Part shown: piece by piece, positions 11,947-49,321 of the stretch | How positions within the stretch are numbered: position 1 is the stretch's first letter | Layout: the number at the start of each line of letters is the position of its first letter | Source of the DNA: Bordetella parapertussis | GTDB lineage: Bacteria > Pseudomonadota > Gammaproteobacteria > Burkholderiales > JACQAP01 | Assembly (NCBI GenBank): GCA_945900965.1 | Contig: CAMDKM010000001.1 | Coordinates: 62,001-126,000 of the forward strand | Direction of reading: 5' to 3' | DNA length: 64,000 nucleotides | The notes under the pieces: model-generated | Databases searched by the model: none | What the model was told of the DNA's origin: nothing | What the model saw: only the letters and a program-made list of their open reading frames with translations | Program-made: the position numbers and the translations under genes

Positions 11947-12079
11947 GCCACAGAGGACACAGAGTACACAGAGGAAAACCAGGAAAATATGTTGGTTTAA
12001 ATGCACGCCAATTTGGTTAATGACTGTGGCATGCTGACCCAATCCTTTGAATCTCTGTGTTCTCTGTGACCTCTGTGGC
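11947..12079. repeat. Intergenic inverted repeat, CACAGAG type
   Basis: The left arm (11947-11974) is a run of CACAGAG-like words and the right arm (12052-12079) is its complement built from CTCTGTG words; about 77 bases of AT-rich spacer lie between. It sits between the rpmA terminator and obg. It belongs to the same architectural class as the GCAAAG elements further along, with a different unit. Confidence 0.8.
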
Positions 12080-28219: not shown

Positions 28220-28541
28220 GACACAGAGGCACAGAGAACATCGAGGACACCGAGAAAGAGCGAAAACGAGATCTTGAGTTTCGGTGCTGTGAAATGCGTC
28301 GCTGCATGAATCCTAAGAAAGCACTGAATAAGTCCCAAAATGTCATTCCCGTGAAAACGGGAATCCAGTATCTCCAAAGACATCTGGTTCCCCGCCTTCG
28401 CGGGGAAGACACCTATTCAGCGTTTCCCTAAAAAGCAACGAGCCAAGATTCGGAATGCGTTCCTTTCCTTTTTGGATTCATCTTCTCACTTTCCTTTGCG
28501 CCCTTCGCGTTCTTTGCGTCTTTGCGTTGAGATTCTCTTTT
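28220..28541. repeat. Composite repeat region: CACAGAG arm, dRS3-like unit, GCAAAG right arm
   Basis: Between the convergent DpgC-like and CoxL-like genes. 28220-28262 is a CACAGAG/GAGGACACCGAG arm, 28345-28364 is a dRS3-like unit, and 28493-28541 is a complete right arm of the GCAAAG family (CTTTGCG words ending TTGAGATTCTCTTTT). No gene is evident in the 336 bases. The arms do not pair with each other, so several elements have landed here or been partly deleted. Confidence 0.75.
28345..28364. repeat. dRS3-like 20-bp repeat
   Basis: Exactly fits ATTCCC-N8-GGGAAT, the pattern of the neisserial dRS3 repeat, with GTGAAAAC in the centre. A related copy with a 6-base centre lies at 50334-50351, and a degenerate one near 23284. 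Confidence 0.75.
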
Positions 28542-31500: not shown

Positions 31501-31647
31501 AGCTCGACGCAAAGGTGCAAAGATCGCGAAGGTCGCAAAGAAATGCAAATCAAGAGTAAAGTCCACGCATGCCTGTCTTGCCCGCTTTAGATTTTCTTTC
31601 TTGCTTTTCTTTGCGTCCTTTGCGCCTTTGCGTCGAGATTATCTTTT
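31501..31647. repeat. GCAAAG-family inverted-repeat element (MITE-like), between coxS-like and coxM-like genes
   Basis: The left arm 31501-31540 starts AGCTCGACGCAAAGG and the right arm 31607-31647 ends CCTTTGCGTCGAGATTATC; the two are near-perfect complements over about 30 bases with 66 bases between. It sits inside a presumed operon. Confidence 0.85.
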
Positions 31648-40656: not shown

Positions 40657-41559
40657 ATGCCCATCAAACTTCCCGCCTCCATCGACGAGACTTTAACGCT
40701 GCTTGCACAAGGCGATTACGTCGCCGAACGTTCGCTTGCCACCGCGGTTTTTCTTTCGCTGCGCATGGGCAGGCCGCTGTTTCTGGAAGGCGAGGCCGGG
40801 GTCGGCAAGACCGAGATCGCCAAGGTCTTGGCGAAAGTGCTGGGACGCGAGTTGATCCGGCTGCAATGCTACGAAGGTCTGGACATCGCCTCGGCGGTAT
40901 ACGAATGGAATTACCAGCGCCAGATGATCGAAATCCGGCTGGCGGAAGCCGAAGGTTCGGGCTCGCGGGAAAAGCTGGAAAAGGACATTTTCAGCGAACG
41001 CTTTCTCATCCGCCGGCCGATCCTGCAAGCACTGGACGCCAAGACCGGCGAAGCGCCGGTGCTACTGATCGATGAACTGGACCGCACTGACGAACCCTTT
41101 GAAGCGTATCTGCTGGAAGTGCTGGCGGACTTCCAGGTCACCATACCCGAGATCGGCACCATCAAGGCAACCAAGCTGCCCATTGTCATCATCACCTCGA
41201 ATCGCACCCGCGAAATCCACGACGCGGTCAAGCGCCGTTGCCTGTATCACTGGGTGGACTACCCAAATGCCGAACGCGAACTCGAAATCGTCCGACGCAA
41301 GGTTCCGGAAGCCGCGCAGCAACTTTCGTGCGAAGTGGTGGCTTTCGTCCAACGCCTGCGCGAACTCGATCTGTTTAAGCAACCCGGTGTCGCAGAATCC
41401 ATCGACTGGTCGAAAGCGCTCGCGCTGCTCGACCGCGTGTCACTTGATTCGAGCACCATAGATGACACACTCGGCGTGTTGCTCAAGTACCAGGACGACA
41501 TTGCTCGCGTGCGCGGGGTGGAGGCGAGTCGCATCCTGGCCGCCGTGAAAACAGCCTGA
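40657..41559 (+). CDS. MoxR-family AAA+ ATPase (CoxD-like)
   Basis: 300 residues: Walker A GEAGVGKTE, Walker B VLLIDELDR and sensor TSNRTREIHDAVKRR, then a lid domain. MoxR ATPases pair with VWA proteins as metal-insertion chaperones; CoxD acts on the Mo/Cu site of CO dehydrogenase. The VWA partner (42079) and CoxG (43281) follow, interrupted by a nuclease-bearing repeat element. Start at the ATG giving MPIKLPASIDE. Confidence 0.9.
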   Translation: MPIKLPASIDETLTLLAQGDYVAERSLATAVFLSLRMGRPLFLEGEAGVGKTEIAKVLAKVLGRELIRLQCYEGLDIASAVYEWNYQRQMIEIRLAEAEGSGSREKLEKDIFSERFLIRRPILQALDAKTGEAPVLLIDELDRTDEPFEAYLLEVLADFQVTIPEIGTIKATKLPIVIITSNRTREIHDAVKRRCLYHWVDYPNAERELEIVRRKVPEAAQQLSCEVVAFVQRLRELDLFKQPGVAESIDWSKALALLDRVSLDSSTIDDTLGVLLKYQDDIARVRGVEASRILAAVKTA

Positions 41560-41568
41560 CCAGCCAAA

Positions 41569-42078
41569 GATAAGCTCAACACAAATACCCAACGTGCGCA
41601 GCACGTCGGAGTACCCTTTTAGACGCGAAGGACGCCAAGGCCGCAAAGTGGACGAGAATGTGCTTTCCAGTGAAATTATAGGTGCCGCGATAGAGGTTCA
41701 CAAAATTCTCGGCCCTGGCTTACTCGAATCTATATACGAAGATGCGCTTGAAATCGAATTGGGCAAGTGTGGTCTGACCGTGGCGCGCCAAGTCGGAGTA
41801 CTGGCGAATTACAAGGGGCACACGCTTCCAACGGTTTTGCGCCTGGATCTTTGTGTAAACGATCTGGTCATCGTTGAAATCAAGTCAGTCGACAGGTTGC
41901 TACCTATACACCAGGCTCAACTGCTGAGTTACTTGCGGCTGGCGAACAAGAAACTTGGATTGCTGATCAATTTCAATTCTGCGCTTCTCAAGAACTCGAT
42001 CCGCCGCATAGTCAACAATCTTTGATTTTCTTTGCGTTCTTAGCGCCCTTTGCGCCTTTGCGTTGAGATTCCCCTTTT
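41569..42078. mobile_element. GCAAAG-family element carrying a GxxExxY nuclease gene
   Basis: Left end 41569-41647 starts GATAAGCTCAACACAAAT, includes a perfect ACGTGC-GCA-GCACGT hairpin (41592-41606), then GACGCGAAGGACGCC words. Right end 42027-42078 has CTTTGCG words ending TTGAGATTCCCCTTTT. The arms are imperfect complements and the ORF fills the space between them. It sits between the MoxR and VWA genes, which normally abut, so it looks like an insertion of about 0.5 kb. No transposase is present. Confidence 0.7.
41648..42025 (+). CDS. GxxExxY protein, PD-(D/E)xK nuclease superfamily
   Basis: 125 residues from a GTG; a longer frame begins in the left arm at 41594. The signature GLLESIY (G-x-x-E-x-x-Y) follows GAAIEVHKILGP; the likely nuclease core is Asp in LRLDLCV and EIK in VIVEIKSVDRL, with a C-terminal QLLSYLRLANKKLGLLINFN. 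The family is widespread, small and functionally uncharacterised; the fold implies DNA cleavage. It is the only gene inside the repeat element. Confidence 0.88.
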   Translation: MDENVLSSEIIGAAIEVHKILGPGLLESIYEDALEIELGKCGLTVARQVGVLANYKGHTLPTVLRLDLCVNDLVIVEIKSVDRLLPIHQAQLLSYLRLANKKLGLLINFNSALLKNSIRRIVNNL

Positions 42079-43290
42079 ATGATTCTTGCGGAAAACATCG
42101 TCCATTTCGCCCGCGCGCTACGTGAAGCGGGTATTCCGGTCGGGCCGGACCGGGTGCTTGATGGGTTGCGGGCGTTGGCGATTATCGGTGTCGAGCGGCG
42201 CGAGGATTTTTACTGGACGCTCGCTTCGGTGTTTCTGAGCCGCCGTGAACAATTCGAACTGTTCGACAAGGCATTCTCTCTATTCTGGCGCGAGCGCAGT
42301 CTGCTTGAGCGCGCGCCACAGGGCTTGCCGGCCGCCGCGCCTGCCAATGCCGCCGGCAAAACGCCGAACCGGATTGCCGAGGCGTTCGGCCTGACGAAGA
42401 AAGTCCCGGTACGTGCCGAGCGGCAGGAAGACGAGCCCGATGCCATGTTCAGCGCCTCTAATCTGGAGCGCATGCGGCGCCGCGACTTCGAATCGATGAC
42501 AACGGAAGAACTGGAGCAGGCCAAGCGATTGATCGCAGGATTGCAACTGCCGATTCCGGCGATTCGCACCCGACGCCTGTATCCGGATGCACACGGATCA
42601 AGGGCAGACTTGCGGGCGACGCTGCGCGCCAGCCTGCGCGGCAATGCCGATATCATTGCCCTGCGCCGGCGCTCGTTTCGTCTTCGCCATCCGCCGCTGG
42701 TCGTGCTGTGCGACATATCCGGCTCGATGAGTCGTTACTCGCGCATGTTCCTGCATTTTCTGCATGCCATCACCAATGACCGCGACCGGGTCCACAGCTT
42801 CGTGTTTGGCACCCGGCTGACAAATATCACCCGGCAATTGCTCCACCGGGATGTCGATCTCGCGCTGGATGCCATTTCCTCCACTGTAAACGACTGGTCG
42901 GGCGGCACACGCATTGGCGCTACCCTGAAGGAATTCAATCAACGCTGGTCACGGCGCGTGCTGGGCCAGAATGCGGTGGTCTTGCTGATTAGCGATGGCC
43001 TCGACCGCGATGCAGGAGAGGATCTCGGGATACAGATAGAACGCTTGCACAAGTCATGTCACCAATTGATCTGGCTAAACCCGTTGTTGCGGTTCCAGCA
43101 CTTCGAACCCAAGGCAGCCGGCGTGCGTTTGATGCTGCCGCATGTGGATGCCTTCCTGCCCGCGCACAATATCGACAGCTTGACGGACCTGGCCCGCTCA
43201 CTGCGAACGTCCCGAGAACGGGCACGGCAACCTGGCTTGGCGCATACTGCCGGCCTGAAAACATCGAGAGCATTTACATCATGGAAATAA
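42079..43290 (+). CDS. VWA-domain protein CoxE-like
   Basis: 403 residues. An N-terminal helical segment (VHFARALREAGIPVGPDRVLDG) typical of CoxE, a variable Ala/Glu-rich middle, then a VWA domain with MIDAS CDISGSMSRYS and SGGTRIG. Partner of the MoxR ATPase in maturation of molybdenum hydroxylases. The ATG directly abuts the right end of the GCAAAG element, whose AT-poor sequence offers only a weak ribosome site. It overlaps coxG-like by 10 bases. Confidence 0.9.
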   Translation: MILAENIVHFARALREAGIPVGPDRVLDGLRALAIIGVERREDFYWTLASVFLSRREQFELFDKAFSLFWRERSLLERAPQGLPAAAPANAAGKTPNRIAEAFGLTKKVPVRAERQEDEPDAMFSASNLERMRRRDFESMTTEELEQAKRLIAGLQLPIPAIRTRRLYPDAHGSRADLRATLRASLRGNADIIALRRRSFRLRHPPLVVLCDISGSMSRYSRMFLHFLHAITNDRDRVHSFVFGTRLTNITRQLLHRDVDLALDAISSTVNDWSGGTRIGATLKEFNQRWSRRVLGQNAVVLLISDGLDRDAGEDLGIQIERLHKSCHQLIWLNPLLRFQHFEPKAAGVRLMLPHVDAFLPAHNIDSLTDLARSLRTSRERARQPGLAHTAGLKTSRAFTSWK

Positions 43291-43844
43291 GCGGAGAGCA
43301 GCGCATCGCGCTCAGTCAGCAGCGCGTATGGGAAGCGCTCAACGATCCGGAGATTCTCAAGGTATGTATTGCGGGCTGCGAGAGCATCGAGCGAGTCTCA
43401 GACAATGAATACAAAGTGGCGATGACGGCGGCCATCGGCCCGGTCAAGGCGAAATTTTCCGGCAAGCTCCTGTTGTCGGACCTCAATCCGCCCAATTCCT
43501 ACTCGCTTGCATTTGAAGGTTCCGGCGGCGCAGCAGGTTTCGGCAAGGGCAGCGCCCGCGTAACTCTGGCGACGAACGGCGAAGTCACGCTGCTCACCTA
43601 TAAGGCCACAGCCTCCGTGGGCGGCAAACTTGCGCAAATCGGTTCACGCCTGATCGATGGCGTGGCCAAGAAAATGTCGGATGATTTCTTTGCGAAGTTC
43701 AATGCAACGGTCGCCACAGCAGAGCAACCCGTTGCTGAGGCAGTTACGGCCCATCCCCCAGCTACGAAATTCACACTGCCAGTATGGGCCTGGGTGGGAG
43801 GCGCAATCGCGCTACTGCTGATGTTGCTGTACTTGACAAGGTGA
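43281..43844 (+). CDS. CoxG-like SRPBCC protein with C-terminal membrane anchor
   Basis: 187 residues: an SRPBCC/CoxG domain (MEISGEQRIALSQQRVWEAL, IPG-like IAGCESIERV, GPVKAKFSGK, GKLAQIGSRLIDGVAKKM) and a C-terminal helix (VWAWVGGAIALLLMLLYL). CoxG recruits CO dehydrogenase-type enzymes to the membrane and has been linked to quinone delivery. It overlaps the VWA gene and the following flavoprotein gene, so coxE-coxG-baiN are coupled. Confidence 0.92.
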   Translation: MEISGEQRIALSQQRVWEALNDPEILKVCIAGCESIERVSDNEYKVAMTAAIGPVKAKFSGKLLLSDLNPPNSYSLAFEGSGGAAGFGKGSARVTLATNGEVTLLTYKATASVGGKLAQIGSRLIDGVAKKMSDDFFAKFNATVATAEQPVAEAVTAHPPATKFTLPVWAWVGGAIALLLMLLYLTR

Positions 43845-45028
43845 GTCCGCGCCCGGCGCCAACCGACGCCGATGTCGTGATCATCGGCGCCGGCGCGGCG
43901 GGCATGTTGTGCGCAATTGAAGCGGGCAAGCGCGGGCGCCGGGTGCTGCTCATCGATCACGCGCAAAAGCTGGGTGAGAAAATCCGCATCTCCGGTGGCG
44001 GACGCTGCAACTTCACCAACCTAGACGTGCGTGCGGAGCATTTTCTGTCCGCGAATCCGAATTTTTGCCGCTCGGCACTGGCGCGCTATACGCCACGTGA
44101 TTTCATTGCTTTGATCGAACAACACGGCATCGCCTGGGAGGAGAGGAAGCACGGTCAGTTGTTCTGCGTTGATTCCGCGCAGCAGATCATCGATATGCTG
44201 AAAACCGAATGCGACGCGGCCCATGTGGTCCGGTACATGGGCGCGGAAATCAGTTCGGTTGAAAAACACGAGAGTTTCGAGATCGCCACCAGCCGCGGCA
44301 ATTTTGAATGTGAATCCCTGGTCATCGCCAGCGGCGGATTGTCCATTCCGCAGATCGGCGCCACTGCTTTTGGCTATCGCATCGCAGAGCAATTCGGCCT
44401 CACGGTCATGCCACTACGCGCCGGGCTGGTCGGACTGACTTTCGCACCGGAAACGCTGGCCCAGTTTGCCGAACTGTCGGGTATTTCCATTGAGGCAGAG
44501 GTCAGTTGCAATGGCGCACGCTTTCGCGAGCAGATGCTCATCACCCATCGCGGCCTGTCCGGTCCCGCGATTCTGCAAATCTCCTCATACTGGAAGCCAG
44601 GCGAGGATATATCGGTGAACTTGCTGCCGGATCGCGACGGCCACGCCATTCTTGATCAGGCGCAGACTTCGGACAAATTACTCGCCAATGTGCTCGGCGA
44701 ATTCCTGCCGCAGCGTCTTGCCGAGCGTTGGGTCTCGGTCAACTTCGAGAATCAGCCGATGAAGCGCCTTGGCGCGGTCCGCCGACGCGAAATTGCGCAT
44801 CGCCTGCACGACTGGCGCATTCGTCCCAGCGGCACGGTGGGTTACAAGAAAGCCGAAGTCACGCTCGGTGGCGTGGACACGCGAGAGCTGTCCTCGAAGA
44901 CACTTGGGACGCGCAAGGTGCCAGGGCTGTATTTCATTGGCGAAGTCGTGGACGTGACCGGGCATCTGGGCGGCTACAATTTTCAATGGGCCTGGGCTTC
45001 GGGATACGCGGCGGGACAGGCTGTGTGA
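43841..45028 (+). CDS. BaiN/HI0933-type NAD(P)/FAD-dependent oxidoreductase
   Basis: 395 residues: the FAD-binding VVIIGAGAAGMLCAIEAGKRG, the family signature KIRISGGGRCNFTN, and the C-terminal PGLYFIGEVVDVTGHLGGYN. This family (YhiN/HI0933) is widespread; one member, BaiN, is a bile-acid reductase, but the general substrate is unknown. The GTG start overlaps the coxG stop (GTGA). It ends the operon; a long repeat-rich gap follows. Confidence 0.9.
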   Translation: MSPRPAPTDADVVIIGAGAAGMLCAIEAGKRGRRVLLIDHAQKLGEKIRISGGGRCNFTNLDVRAEHFLSANPNFCRSALARYTPRDFIALIEQHGIAWEERKHGQLFCVDSAQQIIDMLKTECDAAHVVRYMGAEISSVEKHESFEIATSRGNFECESLVIASGGLSIPQIGATAFGYRIAEQFGLTVMPLRAGLVGLTFAPETLAQFAELSGISIEAEVSCNGARFREQMLITHRGLSGPAILQISSYWKPGEDISVNLLPDRDGHAILDQAQTSDKLLANVLGEFLPQRLAERWVSVNFENQPMKRLGAVRRREIAHRLHDWRIRPSGTVGYKKAEVTLGGVDTRELSSKTLGTRKVPGLYFIGEVVDVTGHLGGYNFQWAWASGYAAGQAV

Positions 45029-45096
45029 ACTGAGCCTGAGTTTGGTGACGTCCCGGTAATTTGTGAAATTACGCCCCCCCCTCTCCCCTGCCCTAT

Positions 45097-45285
45097 CCAT
45101 GAACCGTCCTGGTCCAGGGAGAAAATCAATGGCGAGCGGGCCAGTCGCATGCGCCCTCAAGACTACTTGCCCCCTCTCCCCGCTGGCGGGGAGAGGGCGG
45201 GGGTGAGGGGAGCACAAGTGCCGCAGTATTTCTTCCAGCACCGACTTTCCACGAACCATCCTGTTCCAGGGCGCAAGTCGGTGGC
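45097..45285. repeat. Diverged direct repeat flanking a hairpin
   Basis: CCATGAACCGTCCTGGTCCA (from 45097) recurs as CCACGAACCATCCTGTTCCA (from 45249), followed in both by a related AAAATCAATGGCG / AAGTCGGTGGC tail. The unit is about 37 bases with period 152. Between them lies the CCCTCTCCCC hairpin. No gene is present. Confidence 0.65.
45172..45197. repeat. Perfect 12-bp hairpin of the CCCTCTCCCC type
   Basis: CCCTCTCCCCGC / GCGGGGAGAGGG with a 2-base loop, followed by GGGGGTGAGGGG. This is a common intergenic repeat motif in high-GC proteobacteria. It would form a very stable RNA hairpin downstream of the BaiN-type gene on either strand. Confidence 0.75.
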
Positions 45286-45305
45286 AAAAAATCAAATCAG
45301 TCCGC

Positions 45306-45336
45306 GTAGGGCGCGATAACCGAAGGGCATTGCGCC
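45306..45336. repeat. REP-like element, second copy
   Basis: GTAGGGCGCGATAACCGAAG... ATTGCGCC, a slightly degenerate version of the palindrome at 25363-25397. It lies 28 bases before the RAYT remnant, the expected position for a REP recognised by that enzyme. Confidence 0.75.
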
Positions 45337-45363
45337 GAATGTCCGCAGCCGCAATACTGGTGC

Positions 45364-45549
45364 ATGCCCGATTATCGACGCGCATGGAATCTTGGCGGCA
45401 CGTACTTCTTCACCGTCAATCTGCTCCAACGCCATAAAAATGGCCGTACCCGCACATCCTCAATACTATTTCATTGGGTGCAGGCGAACGCTGGAGGAAA
45501 TAAGACTGACGACAGAATATCGAAGAGAGCCGTCGTCGAAGACGTGTAG
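45364..45549 (+). pseudogene. RAYT (REP-associated tyrosine transposase) N-terminal remnant
   Basis: The first about 23 residues, MPDYRRAWNLGGTYFFTVNL plus LQR, are the hallmark N-terminus of Y1/IS200-like RAYT proteins. After that the 61-residue frame bears no resemblance; the HUH motif and catalytic tyrosine are missing. The body has been deleted, leaving a REP and the start of the gene. Confidence 0.75.
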
Positions 45550-45567
45550 TGTTTCTCTACCTTGAAT

Positions 45568-45617
45568 TTCTTCGCGTACTTTGCGCCCTTTGCGTCTTTG
45601 CGTTTAGCTTCCCTTTT
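45568..45617. repeat. GCAAAG-family right-type arm (solitary)
   Basis: CTTTGCGCCCTTTGCGTCTTTGCG words ending TTTAGCTTCCCTTTT, equivalent to the right ends of the elements at 42027 and 47968. No facing left arm is found before it. Confidence 0.75.
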
Positions 45618-45720
45618 GAAATTCTAAACAGGACAAGGATATGCTCATCTTGTCATTTTCCCTTCGTTCCCGGTAGCCGGCTCCGAAACGGATTAATTTT
45701 CACAGTAAGTTATTTGAACT

Positions 45721-45779
45721 TGCTTTTCTTTGCGTCTTTGCGCCTAAAAGGGTACTCCGACGTGCTATGCACGTAGGGT
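45721..45779 (-). repeat. Second copy of the GxxExxY element's left end, inverted
   Basis: On the minus strand this reads AAATACCCTACGTGC, a perfect hairpin (45760-45774), GTCGGAGTACCCTTTTAG, then GGCGCAAAGACGCAAAG. That is the same leader as 41583-41640 apart from a few bases, but no GxxExxY gene follows. It is a deleted or empty copy of the nuclease-bearing element. Confidence 0.8.
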
Positions 45780-45902
45780 ATTTGCGTCGGGCAATTCTTT
45801 AAGTTTGGCCGTAGTTGGCCGGCTGCTCTAAAATGGCGAACTTTCGAGTCCGGCAATTGTGTCCGTCCGGCCCATCCATGATAGGTACTTAGGGAGAGTG
45901 TC

Positions 45903-46652
45903 ATGAATCAATTCGATATGAAAGGCCGCAGTGCCATTGTCACGGGGGGCGCTTCCGGCATCGGGCTTGCCATCGCACAGCGGCTGGCCAAATCCGGCGC
46001 CAACGTGGCGATATGGGATATGAACGAAAAATCCATGACGGAGGCGGCCAAGTCGCTGGGTGCGGCCAAGACTCATAGCGTCAAGGTGGATGTCACCAAA
46101 CTCGGTCAGATTGAAGCCGCATTCAAATCCACCGTGGCCGCCTTCGGAAAAATCGATGCGCTGGTGTGTTCCGCCGGTATCGCCGGCGTGAACGCGCCGA
46201 GCTGGGAAATACCGGCCGATGACTGGCTGCGCGTGCACGACATCAACCTTAACGGCGTGTTCTACTGCTGCCGCACGGTTATTCCGCACATGATCAAGAA
46301 CAACTACGGTCGCATCGTCAACATTGCCTCGGTCGCCGGCAAGGAAGGCAATCCCAACGCAGCCGCCTACAGTTCATCGAAGGCGGCGGTGATTGGCCTC
46401 ACCAAGTCGCTGGGCAAGGAAACCGCCAAGAACGGCATCACGGTCAATTGCGTGACCCCGGCAGCAGTCAGGACGCCGATTTTCGAACAGGTTCCGCAGA
46501 GCCATATCGATTACATGCTCTCCAAGATTCCGATGGGCCGCTTTGGCTTGGTCGAGGAAATCGCCGCCACGGTGGTGTGGGCCTGCACGGAAGATTGCTC
46601 CTTCACCACTGCCGCGACGTTCGATTTGTCGGGGGGAAGAGCAACGTACTAA
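45903..46652 (+). CDS. SDR-family oxidoreductase (FabG-like)
   Basis: 249 residues, NAD(P)-dependent. TGGASGIG cofactor motif, CSAGIAG, the catalytic Ser in NIASVAG and YSSSK (Tyr-x-x-x-Lys), with a typical C-terminal substrate loop. Start ATG with GGGAGAG upstream. It is followed at 43 bases by a zinc alcohol dehydrogenase, likely in one catabolic operon. The substrate cannot be told from sequence; FabG-like members often act on 3-hydroxyacyl-CoA or sugar acids. Confidence 0.92.
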   Translation: MNQFDMKGRSAIVTGGASGIGLAIAQRLAKSGANVAIWDMNEKSMTEAAKSLGAAKTHSVKVDVTKLGQIEAAFKSTVAAFGKIDALVCSAGIAGVNAPSWEIPADDWLRVHDINLNGVFYCCRTVIPHMIKNNYGRIVNIASVAGKEGNPNAAAYSSSKAAVIGLTKSLGKETAKNGITVNCVTPAAVRTPIFEQVPQSHIDYMLSKIPMGRFGLVEEIAATVVWACTEDCSFTTAATFDLSGGRATY

Positions 46653-46654
46653 GC

Positions 46655-46690
46655 GTGAGGGGCGAGGGACTCGGGTCGAGGAACGAGGGG
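46655..46690 (+). repeat. GAGGGGCGAGG-type repeat arm, also supplying a ribosome site
   Basis: GTGAGGGGCGAGGGACTCGG plus GTCGAGGAACGAGGGG: one arm of the repeat type seen at 22.8 kb, here without a facing arm. Its last GAGGGG lies 5 bases before the alcohol dehydrogenase ATG and is its only plausible Shine-Dalgarno sequence. Confidence 0.65.
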
Positions 46691-46695
46691 AAAAC

Positions 46696-47820
46696 ATGAA
46701 GATCAGGGCGGCAGTGATTCGGCAGATGGGATTGCCGCAACCGTATGCGGACAGCAAACCGATGCAGATCGAGGAAGTTGATCTCGACAAGCCCGGTGAG
46801 CGGGAGGTGCTGGTCCAGATAAAAGCCGCGAGCCTGTGCCATTCGGATCTATCGACGGTAAACGCCGACCGGCCGCGACCGATGCCGATGGTGCTAGGCC
46901 ATGAGGCCTCGGGTATCGTGCAGGAAATCGGTCACGGGGTGAACGATCTGCAAGTCGGCGATCACGTCGCTCTGGTGTTTGCGCCCAGTTGCGGCCAGTG
47001 CATGTCATGCATCGAAGGCCATCCCGGACGCTGCGAGCCAGGACAGCAAGCCAATGGCGCGGGGAAACTGCTCAATGCGGGTATGCGCCTGCATCAGCAC
47101 GGCAAGGATGTCTATCATCACGTCGGCGTTTCCGCTTTCGCTGAATACTGCGTGGTCAATCGCGGCTCGCTGGTAAAAATCGACAAGGAACTTCCCTTCG
47201 ACGAAGCGGCATTGTTCGGATGCGCGGTGCTGACCGGTGTAGGCGCGGTATTTAATACCGCTCAGGTATTCCCGGGCGCGAAGGTCGCGGTGCTGGGACT
47301 GGGCGGCGTGGGACTTAACTCCCTGCTCGGATCCATCGTGGCTGGCGCCCAGCAAATTGTTGCCATCGACTTGCATGACGACAAACTCGTCCTGGCCAAA
47401 CAACTGGGCGCCACCCACACGGTCAATGCGCGAGCACCGGACGCCATCCAGCAGGTCAAGGATATGACCGGCGGCGGGGTGCATTTCGCTTTCGAAATGG
47501 CCGGCTCGGTTCAAGCAATGGAATTGGCCTATCGCATCACCCGCCGCGGCGGCACCACTGTCTCCGCAGGCTTACCACACCCCGATCACCGCTGGCCGCT
47601 GCAGCACGTCAACATGGTTGCCGAAGAGCGCACCATCAAAGGCAGCTACATGGGTTCCTGCGTGCCGACGCGCGACGTGCCTCGCTATATCGACCTGTAT
47701 CGACGGGGCATGTTGCCGGTGAACAAGCTGATGAGCGACCACATCAAACTCGAAGAAATCAACGTCGGTTTCGATCGCCTGGCCTCCGGCCACACCGTGC
47801 GCCAGATCATCATGATGTAA
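46696..47820 (+). CDS. Zinc-dependent alcohol dehydrogenase family protein
   Basis: 374 residues, medium-chain dehydrogenase. Catalytic zinc Cys in SLCHSD and His in GHEASG, structural-zinc cysteines CGQCMSCIEGHPGRC, Rossmann motif GLGGVGLNSLLG. Class III/NAD-dependent type. Likely substrate an alcohol or aldehyde in the same pathway as the SDR. The longer frame to 46543 overlaps the SDR gene and is rejected. Confidence 0.92.
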   Translation: MKIRAAVIRQMGLPQPYADSKPMQIEEVDLDKPGEREVLVQIKAASLCHSDLSTVNADRPRPMPMVLGHEASGIVQEIGHGVNDLQVGDHVALVFAPSCGQCMSCIEGHPGRCEPGQQANGAGKLLNAGMRLHQHGKDVYHHVGVSAFAEYCVVNRGSLVKIDKELPFDEAALFGCAVLTGVGAVFNTAQVFPGAKVAVLGLGGVGLNSLLGSIVAGAQQIVAIDLHDDKLVLAKQLGATHTVNARAPDAIQQVKDMTGGGVHFAFEMAGSVQAMELAYRITRRGGTTVSAGLPHPDHRWPLQHVNMVAEERTIKGSYMGSCVPTRDVPRYIDLYRRGMLPVNKLMSDHIKLEEINVGFDRLASGHTVRQIIMM

Positions 47821-47828
47821 AGGCTTAA

Positions 47829-48026
47829 GGATAAGCTCAACGCAAAGGAGGCGGAGGTCGCAAAGAAATGCAATGCGAAAGGAGCATTTTGTTTCGACTT
47901 CTCGATCTGGAAACTGGGTAATTGCAATGTATTGACTGGAATTATGCTTTCTTGTTCTGTCTTCGGTTTTCTTTGCGTACTTTGCGATCTTTGCGTCTTT
48001 GCGTCTTTGCGTTGAGATTCTCTTTT
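47829..48026. repeat. GCAAAG-family inverted-repeat element, about 198 bp
   Basis: Left arm 47829-47865 starts GGATAAGCTCAACGCAAAGG, the right arm 47968-48026 ends CTTTGCGTTGAGATTCTC. The ends pair as AAGCTCAACGCAAAG with its complement CTTTGCGTTGAG. A 102-base interior separates them. It is the best-preserved small copy. Confidence 0.88.
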
Positions 48027-49101: not shown

Positions 49102-49174
49102 CACAACAACAATACAAGCTCTCACCGCGGATTCTGTCGCATGACGCAACAACAATACAAGCTCTCACCGCAGA
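49089..49174. repeat. 43-bp tandem direct duplication at the LDH2 stop codon
   Basis: TTCTGTCGCATGACACAACA begins at 49089 and recurs at 49132 with about two differences over 43 bases. The first copy contains the LDH2 stop codon and the second lies entirely downstream, running into the GCGGAGGAC repeat. It looks like a recent slippage duplication. Confidence 0.85.
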
Positions 49175-49321
49175 GGACGCGGAGGAAAAACGAGTCGATG
49201 AACGAAGCGATGGAAAAGGTTTCATACTTCAAATGCATTTGGTCATTTGAACATTCTTACCTGAGCGTTGAAACTTGAATTCTTGCGCTTCCTCCGCGTC
49301 CTCCGCGTCCTCTGCGGTGAG
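49164..49321. repeat. Intergenic inverted repeat, GCGGAGGAC type
   Basis: Left arm CTCACCGCAGAGGACGCGGA (49164-49186), right arm TCCTCCGCGTCCTCTGCGGT (49291-49321); ends pair over about 19 bases. Spacer about 105 bases. Same architecture as the GCAAAG elements. Confidence 0.82.

Follow-up and report, generated by a model that had tools for sequence, protein, structure and literature searches.

A 36-bp REP-like palindromic unit that probably inserted on its own into an arm of a gene-less inverted-array element

In the 64,000-nucleotide stretch of DNA analysed here (the window), a hairpin-bearing leader at 41583-41640 accompanies a gene for a GxxExxY (PDDEXK_3) nuclease, and an earlier note reported the same leader, without the gene, on the minus strand at 45721-45779. 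The question raised by this second locus is whether it is an end of a nuclease element that has lost its gene, or a repeat that reached the place independently. The GxxExxY frame runs from 41594 to 42025 on the plus strand (TIGR04256, E = 5.7e-41; PF13366), and its true start probably lies inside that frame, given that homology spans ~41663-42013. An ATPase gene lies on one side and a CoxE-like gene on the other. Arrays of short repeated words flank the nuclease gene, on the left at 41573-41648 (plus strand) and on the right at 42034-42067 (minus strand). We found the repeat between the two places to be real, and its common part to be a 36-bp palindromic unit. Copy 1 of this unit, at 41585-41620 on the plus strand (loop GCA), splits the left array of the GxxExxY locus. 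Copy 2, at 45746-45781 on the minus strand (loop ATA), likewise sits in a word array, so that the stretch 45721-45779 holds most of the unit together with part of that array.

Read along the minus strand from 45781 to 45746, copy 2 is ATACCC-TACGTGC-ATA-GCACGTCGGAGTACCCTTTT, followed by AGGCGCAAAGACGCAAAG. Copy 1 differs from it in having GCA for ATA and AACGTGC for TACGTGC, which gives a consensus for the two of ATACCC-(T/A)ACGTGC-loop-GCACGT-CGGAGTACCC-TTTT, starting with ATACCC and ending with GGAGTACCCTTTT. The loops had been described as GCA versus TAT; they do differ, TAT being the plus-strand reading of ATA, and the stem-side change AACGTGC/TACGTGC is one further difference. The unit is predicted to fold into an outer stem (TACCC/GGaGTA), a mismatch, a 6-bp inner stem and a 3-nt loop, at -12.1 kcal/mol. 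We compiled a working list of 52 copies from retrieved loci of the window's own genome (G000, 14 copies) and three sister genomes (G001, G002 and G003, with 11, 18 and 9), which retains one row of L091 with a longer loop and out of register, and L012, where the left half is missing. Column by column, the inner-stem pairs are standard in 44-52 of these 52 copies, and one double change preserves the pairing (AGGTGC/GCACCT, L104). The unpaired columns are mostly as conserved as the stem, variation being concentrated in loop columns 14 and 15, and for this reason the proposal that a conserved stem around a differing loop signals selection for pairing carries little weight. The structure finds better support in sequence relatives of the unit, which keep its ends (ATACCC...GGAGTACCC) around different yet paired inner stems, CGC/GCG and GGC/GCC, with loops such as GAA, GCA, GTA, GATA and GTAA. 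A pattern of the ends alone matched 35, 17, 54 and 13 times in G000-G003, counts that take nested copies twice, and its control matched 0 times in each.

The own genome (3.88 Mb in 103 contigs) was examined by pattern searches and retrieved stretches. It contains 13 exact occurrences of GTCGGAGTACCC and 14 copies of GCACGTCGGAGTACCCTTTTAG at up to 3 mismatches, with 0 for the reversed pattern in both searches; the recurrence of the hairpin in this genome is not due to chance. At up to 2 mismatches, 4 of 60 relatives contained the hairpin pattern, and these belong to a single genus (G000-G003, with 13, 10, 18 and 9 places); the other 56 gave zero. An exact-pattern scan of GTDB genome contigs returned 7 stretches, from two Betaproteobacteria metagenome assemblies. 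Outside the genus, the ends pattern had a single match each in 9 of 142 other genomes of the class, where the reversed control matched 13 genomes, and among those nine strings a compact fold with the unit's outer stem was seen in that from G191 only. Searches beyond the genus gave no convincing family member, and we treat the family as restricted to the genus, as far as sampled.

REP elements, as described by Di Nocera et al. (2013; PMC3733652), are GTAG- and CGTC-tagged imperfect palindromes of 20-40 bp in many scattered copies, some families of which are inserted within other palindromic repeats; the CGTC elements have a terminal unpaired CGTC, an 8-9 bp stem and a 4-5 nt loop. The unit is likewise an imperfect palindrome of that size class (36 bp) with many dispersed copies (14 in its own genome), so it could be a REP of known type, moved by a REP-associated tyrosine transposase of the same genome. 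The N-terminal part of a transposase of this kind even has a weak likeness in a 61-residue frame at 45364-45549 (E = 0.00086; 19 bits, where the cut-off is 80). Measured against the features given in that account, however, the foot of the unit has no unpaired GTAG or CGTC tag: across the 52 copies inspected there is no unpaired terminal GTAG, GTAG occurring only within the folded part of the minus strand, and CGTC spans stem and mismatch, with an inner stem of 6 bp and a loop of 3 nt. The unit further differs in its fixed CRR^AG target and in nesting into the loops of other units. Nor is a transposase linked to it, as none of eight family matches in the own genome (five over the cut-off) has a word array or a listed unit within 1.5 kb. 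In a tblastn search with the proteins of these eight loci, one of which (L032) was probably read in the wrong frame, nothing was found at E <= 0.001 in 47 copy loci or in the window. Because the GTAG, CGTC and transposase-link tests all failed, we call the unit REP-like without filing it as a REP, and consider a known-type REP an unlikely explanation. As a separate observation, a palindrome starting with GTAG, presumably REP-like, lies at 45306-45336, just upstream of the short transposase-like frame. The small dispersed repeats of cyanobacteria and the mobile GC clusters of yeast mitochondria are likewise tiny mobile sequences that insert into other repeats; the present unit differs from them in sequence, organism and target motif.

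The junction of the unit is CRR^AG at 44 of the 52 copies (CAG in 17, CGG in 11, CGA in 10 and CAA in 6), the eight others being L012, L081, L085, L087, both rows of L091, L097 and L100. At 37 copies the junction falls inside a complete 7-bp word, CRCVRAG (CGCAAAG, CACAGAG, CACGGAG). No copy (0/52) fits the junction motif in the opposite orientation. Another word lies near 37 of the 52 copies, compared with 116 of 592 CRRAG sites in the window, a background that is itself array-rich. Several units sit within the loop of another unit, at CGCGA^AG. For two sites in the window, versions that have the unit and versions that lack it could be set side by side. At the GxxExxY locus, G000 reads CTCAACACAA, 36 bp of unit, AGACGCGAAGG, where G002 reads CTCAACGCAAAGGCGCAAAGG and the left array of G003, also free of the hairpin, reads CCCAACACAGAGGCACGGAG. 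At the copy-2 locus, G000 reads CTTTGCGCCT, 36 bp of unit, TTGCGTC, and the intact array of G002 reads CTTTGCGCCTTTGCGTC. Excising the 36 bp gives back an uninterrupted array at both sites, and no target duplication is visible at the junctions, where one A is ambiguous. To look for insertions common to two genomes, we compared the flanks of the 52 copies by blastn, using those whose flanks exceed 50 bp; no pair of copies had both flanks in register, and the nearest pair, L077 and L100, was offset by roughly 300 bp.

At both window loci, a later and exact insertion is the simplest reading of these sequences. The converse, in which the array elements had the unit from early on and the sisters lost it by precise deletion, gains from the comparison with and without the unit covering two sites only, but deletion would need to restore the word frame exactly, and the nesting in loops of related units and the many unit-free arrays favour insertion, which makes precise deletion rather improbable in our judgement. 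At the copy-2 locus, between an HI0933-like gene and a short-chain dehydrogenase gene, copy 2 interrupts a minus-strand array at 45723-45788 (CTTTTCTTTGCGTCTTTGCGCCT^unit^TTGCGTC), whose counterpart in the sisters is the right arm of an array element that has no gene. A second array of four words at 45570-45602 has the same orientation, and the interval from 45028 to 45570 showed no plus-strand partner array of at least two words. All three sister genomes have, at this intergenic place, a gene-less, hairpin-free inverted array pair. Given that the spacer of G002 differs from those of G001 and G003, one element may have been replaced by another here. The description of this place as an empty or decayed copy was correct to the extent that a gene-less, decayed array element lies at ~45570-45788; the hairpin is not the end of a nuclease element.

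Together these data lead us to conclude that the stretch 45721-45779 is probably a 36-bp, REP-like palindromic unit, inserted separately into an arm of a gene-less inverted-array element. By the mechanism we propose, the unit would move as a folded single strand, and an enzyme recognising the hairpin would act on single strands in trans. A Y1/HUH-type transposase would fit, as it would account for oriented insertion without target duplication; none is linked. If this reading is right, the loci document a process that is otherwise hard to see, in which very small palindromes insert exactly and in one orientation, and for which no enzyme is apparent.

The hairpin might instead be a transcriptional terminator or an RNA control element under selection: a terminator-like match on the minus strand covers copy 1, and the predicted fold is -12.1 kcal/mol. 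Yet the region contains 5 terminator-like matches against 4.8 +/- 2.2 in shuffles, with none at copy 2; Rfam gave nothing at E <= 1 for the stretch 41000-46800; and the unit is missing at the orthologous places of the sister genomes, all of which make this explanation very doubtful. The reading in the earlier note takes the leader for the left end of a GxxExxY nuclease element, and 45721-45779 for a second such end that has lost its gene. It draws on the unit and CGCAAAG words occurring together at both window copies and on word arrays bounding GxxExxY genes, but is scarcely credible given that, by coordinates compared in the four genomes, 1 of the 52 copies and 1 of the 12 GxxExxY genes lie within 2 kb of each other, that the orthologous loci of G002 and G003 have the gene and the arrays without the hairpin, and that the unit also occurs in gene-free CACAGAG, CACGGAG and CGCAGAG arrays.

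The earlier note had suggested a genome-wide count of leader copies that carry GxxExxY, and in the own genome this is 1 of 14. By these comparisons of sequence, the unit is a separate passenger and does not form an end of the element that holds the nuclease gene. TIGR04256 matches number 4 in the own genome, where one of them contains an in-frame stop, 5 in G002 and 2 in G003; in G001 there is a single gene, split into two parts. The proteins at the CoxE locus of G000, G002 and G003 are 62-64% identical pairwise, and none of the three is more than 53% identical to the nine others. At the CoxE locus of G001, no GxxExxY was seen in the part read, and a different gene fills the gap. The nuclease gene may still belong to a mobile element, a view that draws on a different feature than the hairpin, namely the inverted word arrays that often enclose GxxExxY genes.

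These arrays are inverted pairs that flank either ~70-150 bp or GxxExxY genes. Runs of three consecutive words (CRCVRAG, spacing 1-4) number 314, 345, 282 and 267 in G000-G003, overlapping matches included, against 7, 0, 1 and 18 for the reversed pattern, and among the matches listed many form plus/minus pairs ~110-190 bp apart. The array subfamilies differ in letters and in word spacing (8,8,11; 8,9,9; 9,9; 8,8). Gene-less pairs in the window lie at 11949-12077 (CACAGAG words in both arms), 31525-31632 (CGCAAAG) and 49169-49316 (CGCAGAG/CGCGGAG), and an array element with CGCAAAG words and a partly degenerate left arm, found at the same place in G001 and G002, lies at 47839-48011. Between dehydrogenase genes, the window has no array element at 46652-46696, where the counterparts in G001-G003 (L134, L135 and L137) have a CACGGAG element. 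At the one locus compared with and without a host element, the edges gave no clear alignment from which to read a target duplication. Miniature inverted-repeat transposable elements (MITEs) are a general notion that suits these gene-less elements, which have terminal inverted repeats, are repeated and contain no gene, and which share their array ends with gene-carrying relatives, the GxxExxY loci. They differ from MITEs in that their ends are arrays of interchangeable words, with no transposase known. Among the papers listed by our search of a collection of open-access literature, none described the word arrays or the 36-bp unit.

Within one element, the words at the two ends tend to have the same letters, whereas other elements, and at some loci the orthologous element, have different ones. 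We evaluated this in 45 plus/minus pairs, drawn from the window, from 20 regions in which both arrays of a pair were among the matches listed, and from 12 other loci; a few are probably mispaired, for example 28222-28526. The mean arm score was 0.61 with the own partner and 0.35 with other partners, the observed value being reached in 0 of 10000 permutations. Because letters are common within subfamilies, the own partner ranked first among the 45 for 8 elements and in the top four for 29. When orthologous loci were compared, an element's two arms were closer to each other than the same arm across genomes in 10 of 13 comparisons at five loci; these comparisons are not independent, two of the 10 are by only 0.01, and the other three are near ties in the opposite direction. 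The CoxE-locus GxxExxY element shows most clearly that letters have switched at both ends, with CGCAAAG in G000 and G002 and CACAGAG/CACGGAG in G003. A second GxxExxY locus, which we presume to be at ileS, is common to G002 and G003 (proteins 73% identical) and shows such a switch too, with CGCAAAG in one and CGCAGAG in the other. The G001 gene at this locus, 51% identical to those of G002 and G003, may be another insertion.

Units inserted in both arms bear on how the arms come to agree. Seven close inverted unit pairs were retrieved, five of them in word arrays. In L164, L165 and L166, the same hairpin variant lies at the same word of both arms, and the L164 variant (loop AGA) has no other occurrence among the ends-pattern matches listed. 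The arms of L170 and L171 hold different units, so copying from arm to arm is not universal. L167 and L168 belong to a different repeat, with the same GGC-GAA-GCC unit at both ends. We infer that in L164-L166 the unit in one arm is a copy of that in the other, and the simplest route would be template switching in replication, which is known to make two hairpin arms alike (Monttinen and Loytynoja 2022; PMC8794818). The likeness to that account lies in a known process equalising two hairpin arms; the difference is that the copied tag here would be a 36-bp insertion, in bacterial intergenic elements. In our model, a unit placed in one arm could reach the other when the replication machinery switches template, and the same process would keep the two arms alike. 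A possible alternative for L164-L166 is that whole elements moved with both arms already filled. If template switching is right, these loci record copying between the arms of inverted repeats, revealed by an inserted 36-bp tag. Other short repeats keep company with the units and arrays: another small palindrome-like insert, CAGCAGCTTCGGCCGTAAGTGCTGCGCCTTAAG, occurs with variants inside array words at L012, L015, L169, L171 and L177, and at L074, L086, L091, L172 and L173 units lie next to further short repeats (TTATGGTCG...ACCGG and similar).

More broadly, we advance as a tentative idea, one that may well prove wrong, that the inverted arrays of interchangeable 7-8 bp words around GxxExxY genes, together with their gene-less miniatures, could be an undescribed kind of mobile element, whose ends would be rewritten in concert, with small palindromic insertions copied between the arms, and whose arms would serve as landing pads for nested, tiny folded units. 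GxxExxY occurs in 19 of 143 genomes of the class, the own genome included. Among 27 loci (L184-L210), five fragments or low-scoring matches were left out (L200, L201, L207, L208 and L210), and at 15 of the remaining 22 the inverted repeat between the flanks scored above all 100 shuffles, a level that 0 of 50 control places from these loci reached. The misses at L188, L192 and L196 are explained by shortened loci near contig ends, where the flanks were taken at the wrong places; of the other four, inspection by eye finds words on either side of the gene in L190, L198 and L206 but not in L199. The words vary among loci, even to CGCAGATT, ACAGGATT and CCACGGAA, and agree within a locus. If this reading is right, the arrays would offer a lead for the little-studied GxxExxY family, whose genes, in many genera of the class, are enclosed by inverted arrays that match each other. 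Of 200 genomes of the phylum, 78 gave matches to three-word arrays of the first kind, many of them only a few and some lineages tens to hundreds, and several of the matches displayed look like chance occurrences in coding sequence. Distant lineages rich in arrays include G315, with 244 three-word matches, G346, with 140, and also G232.
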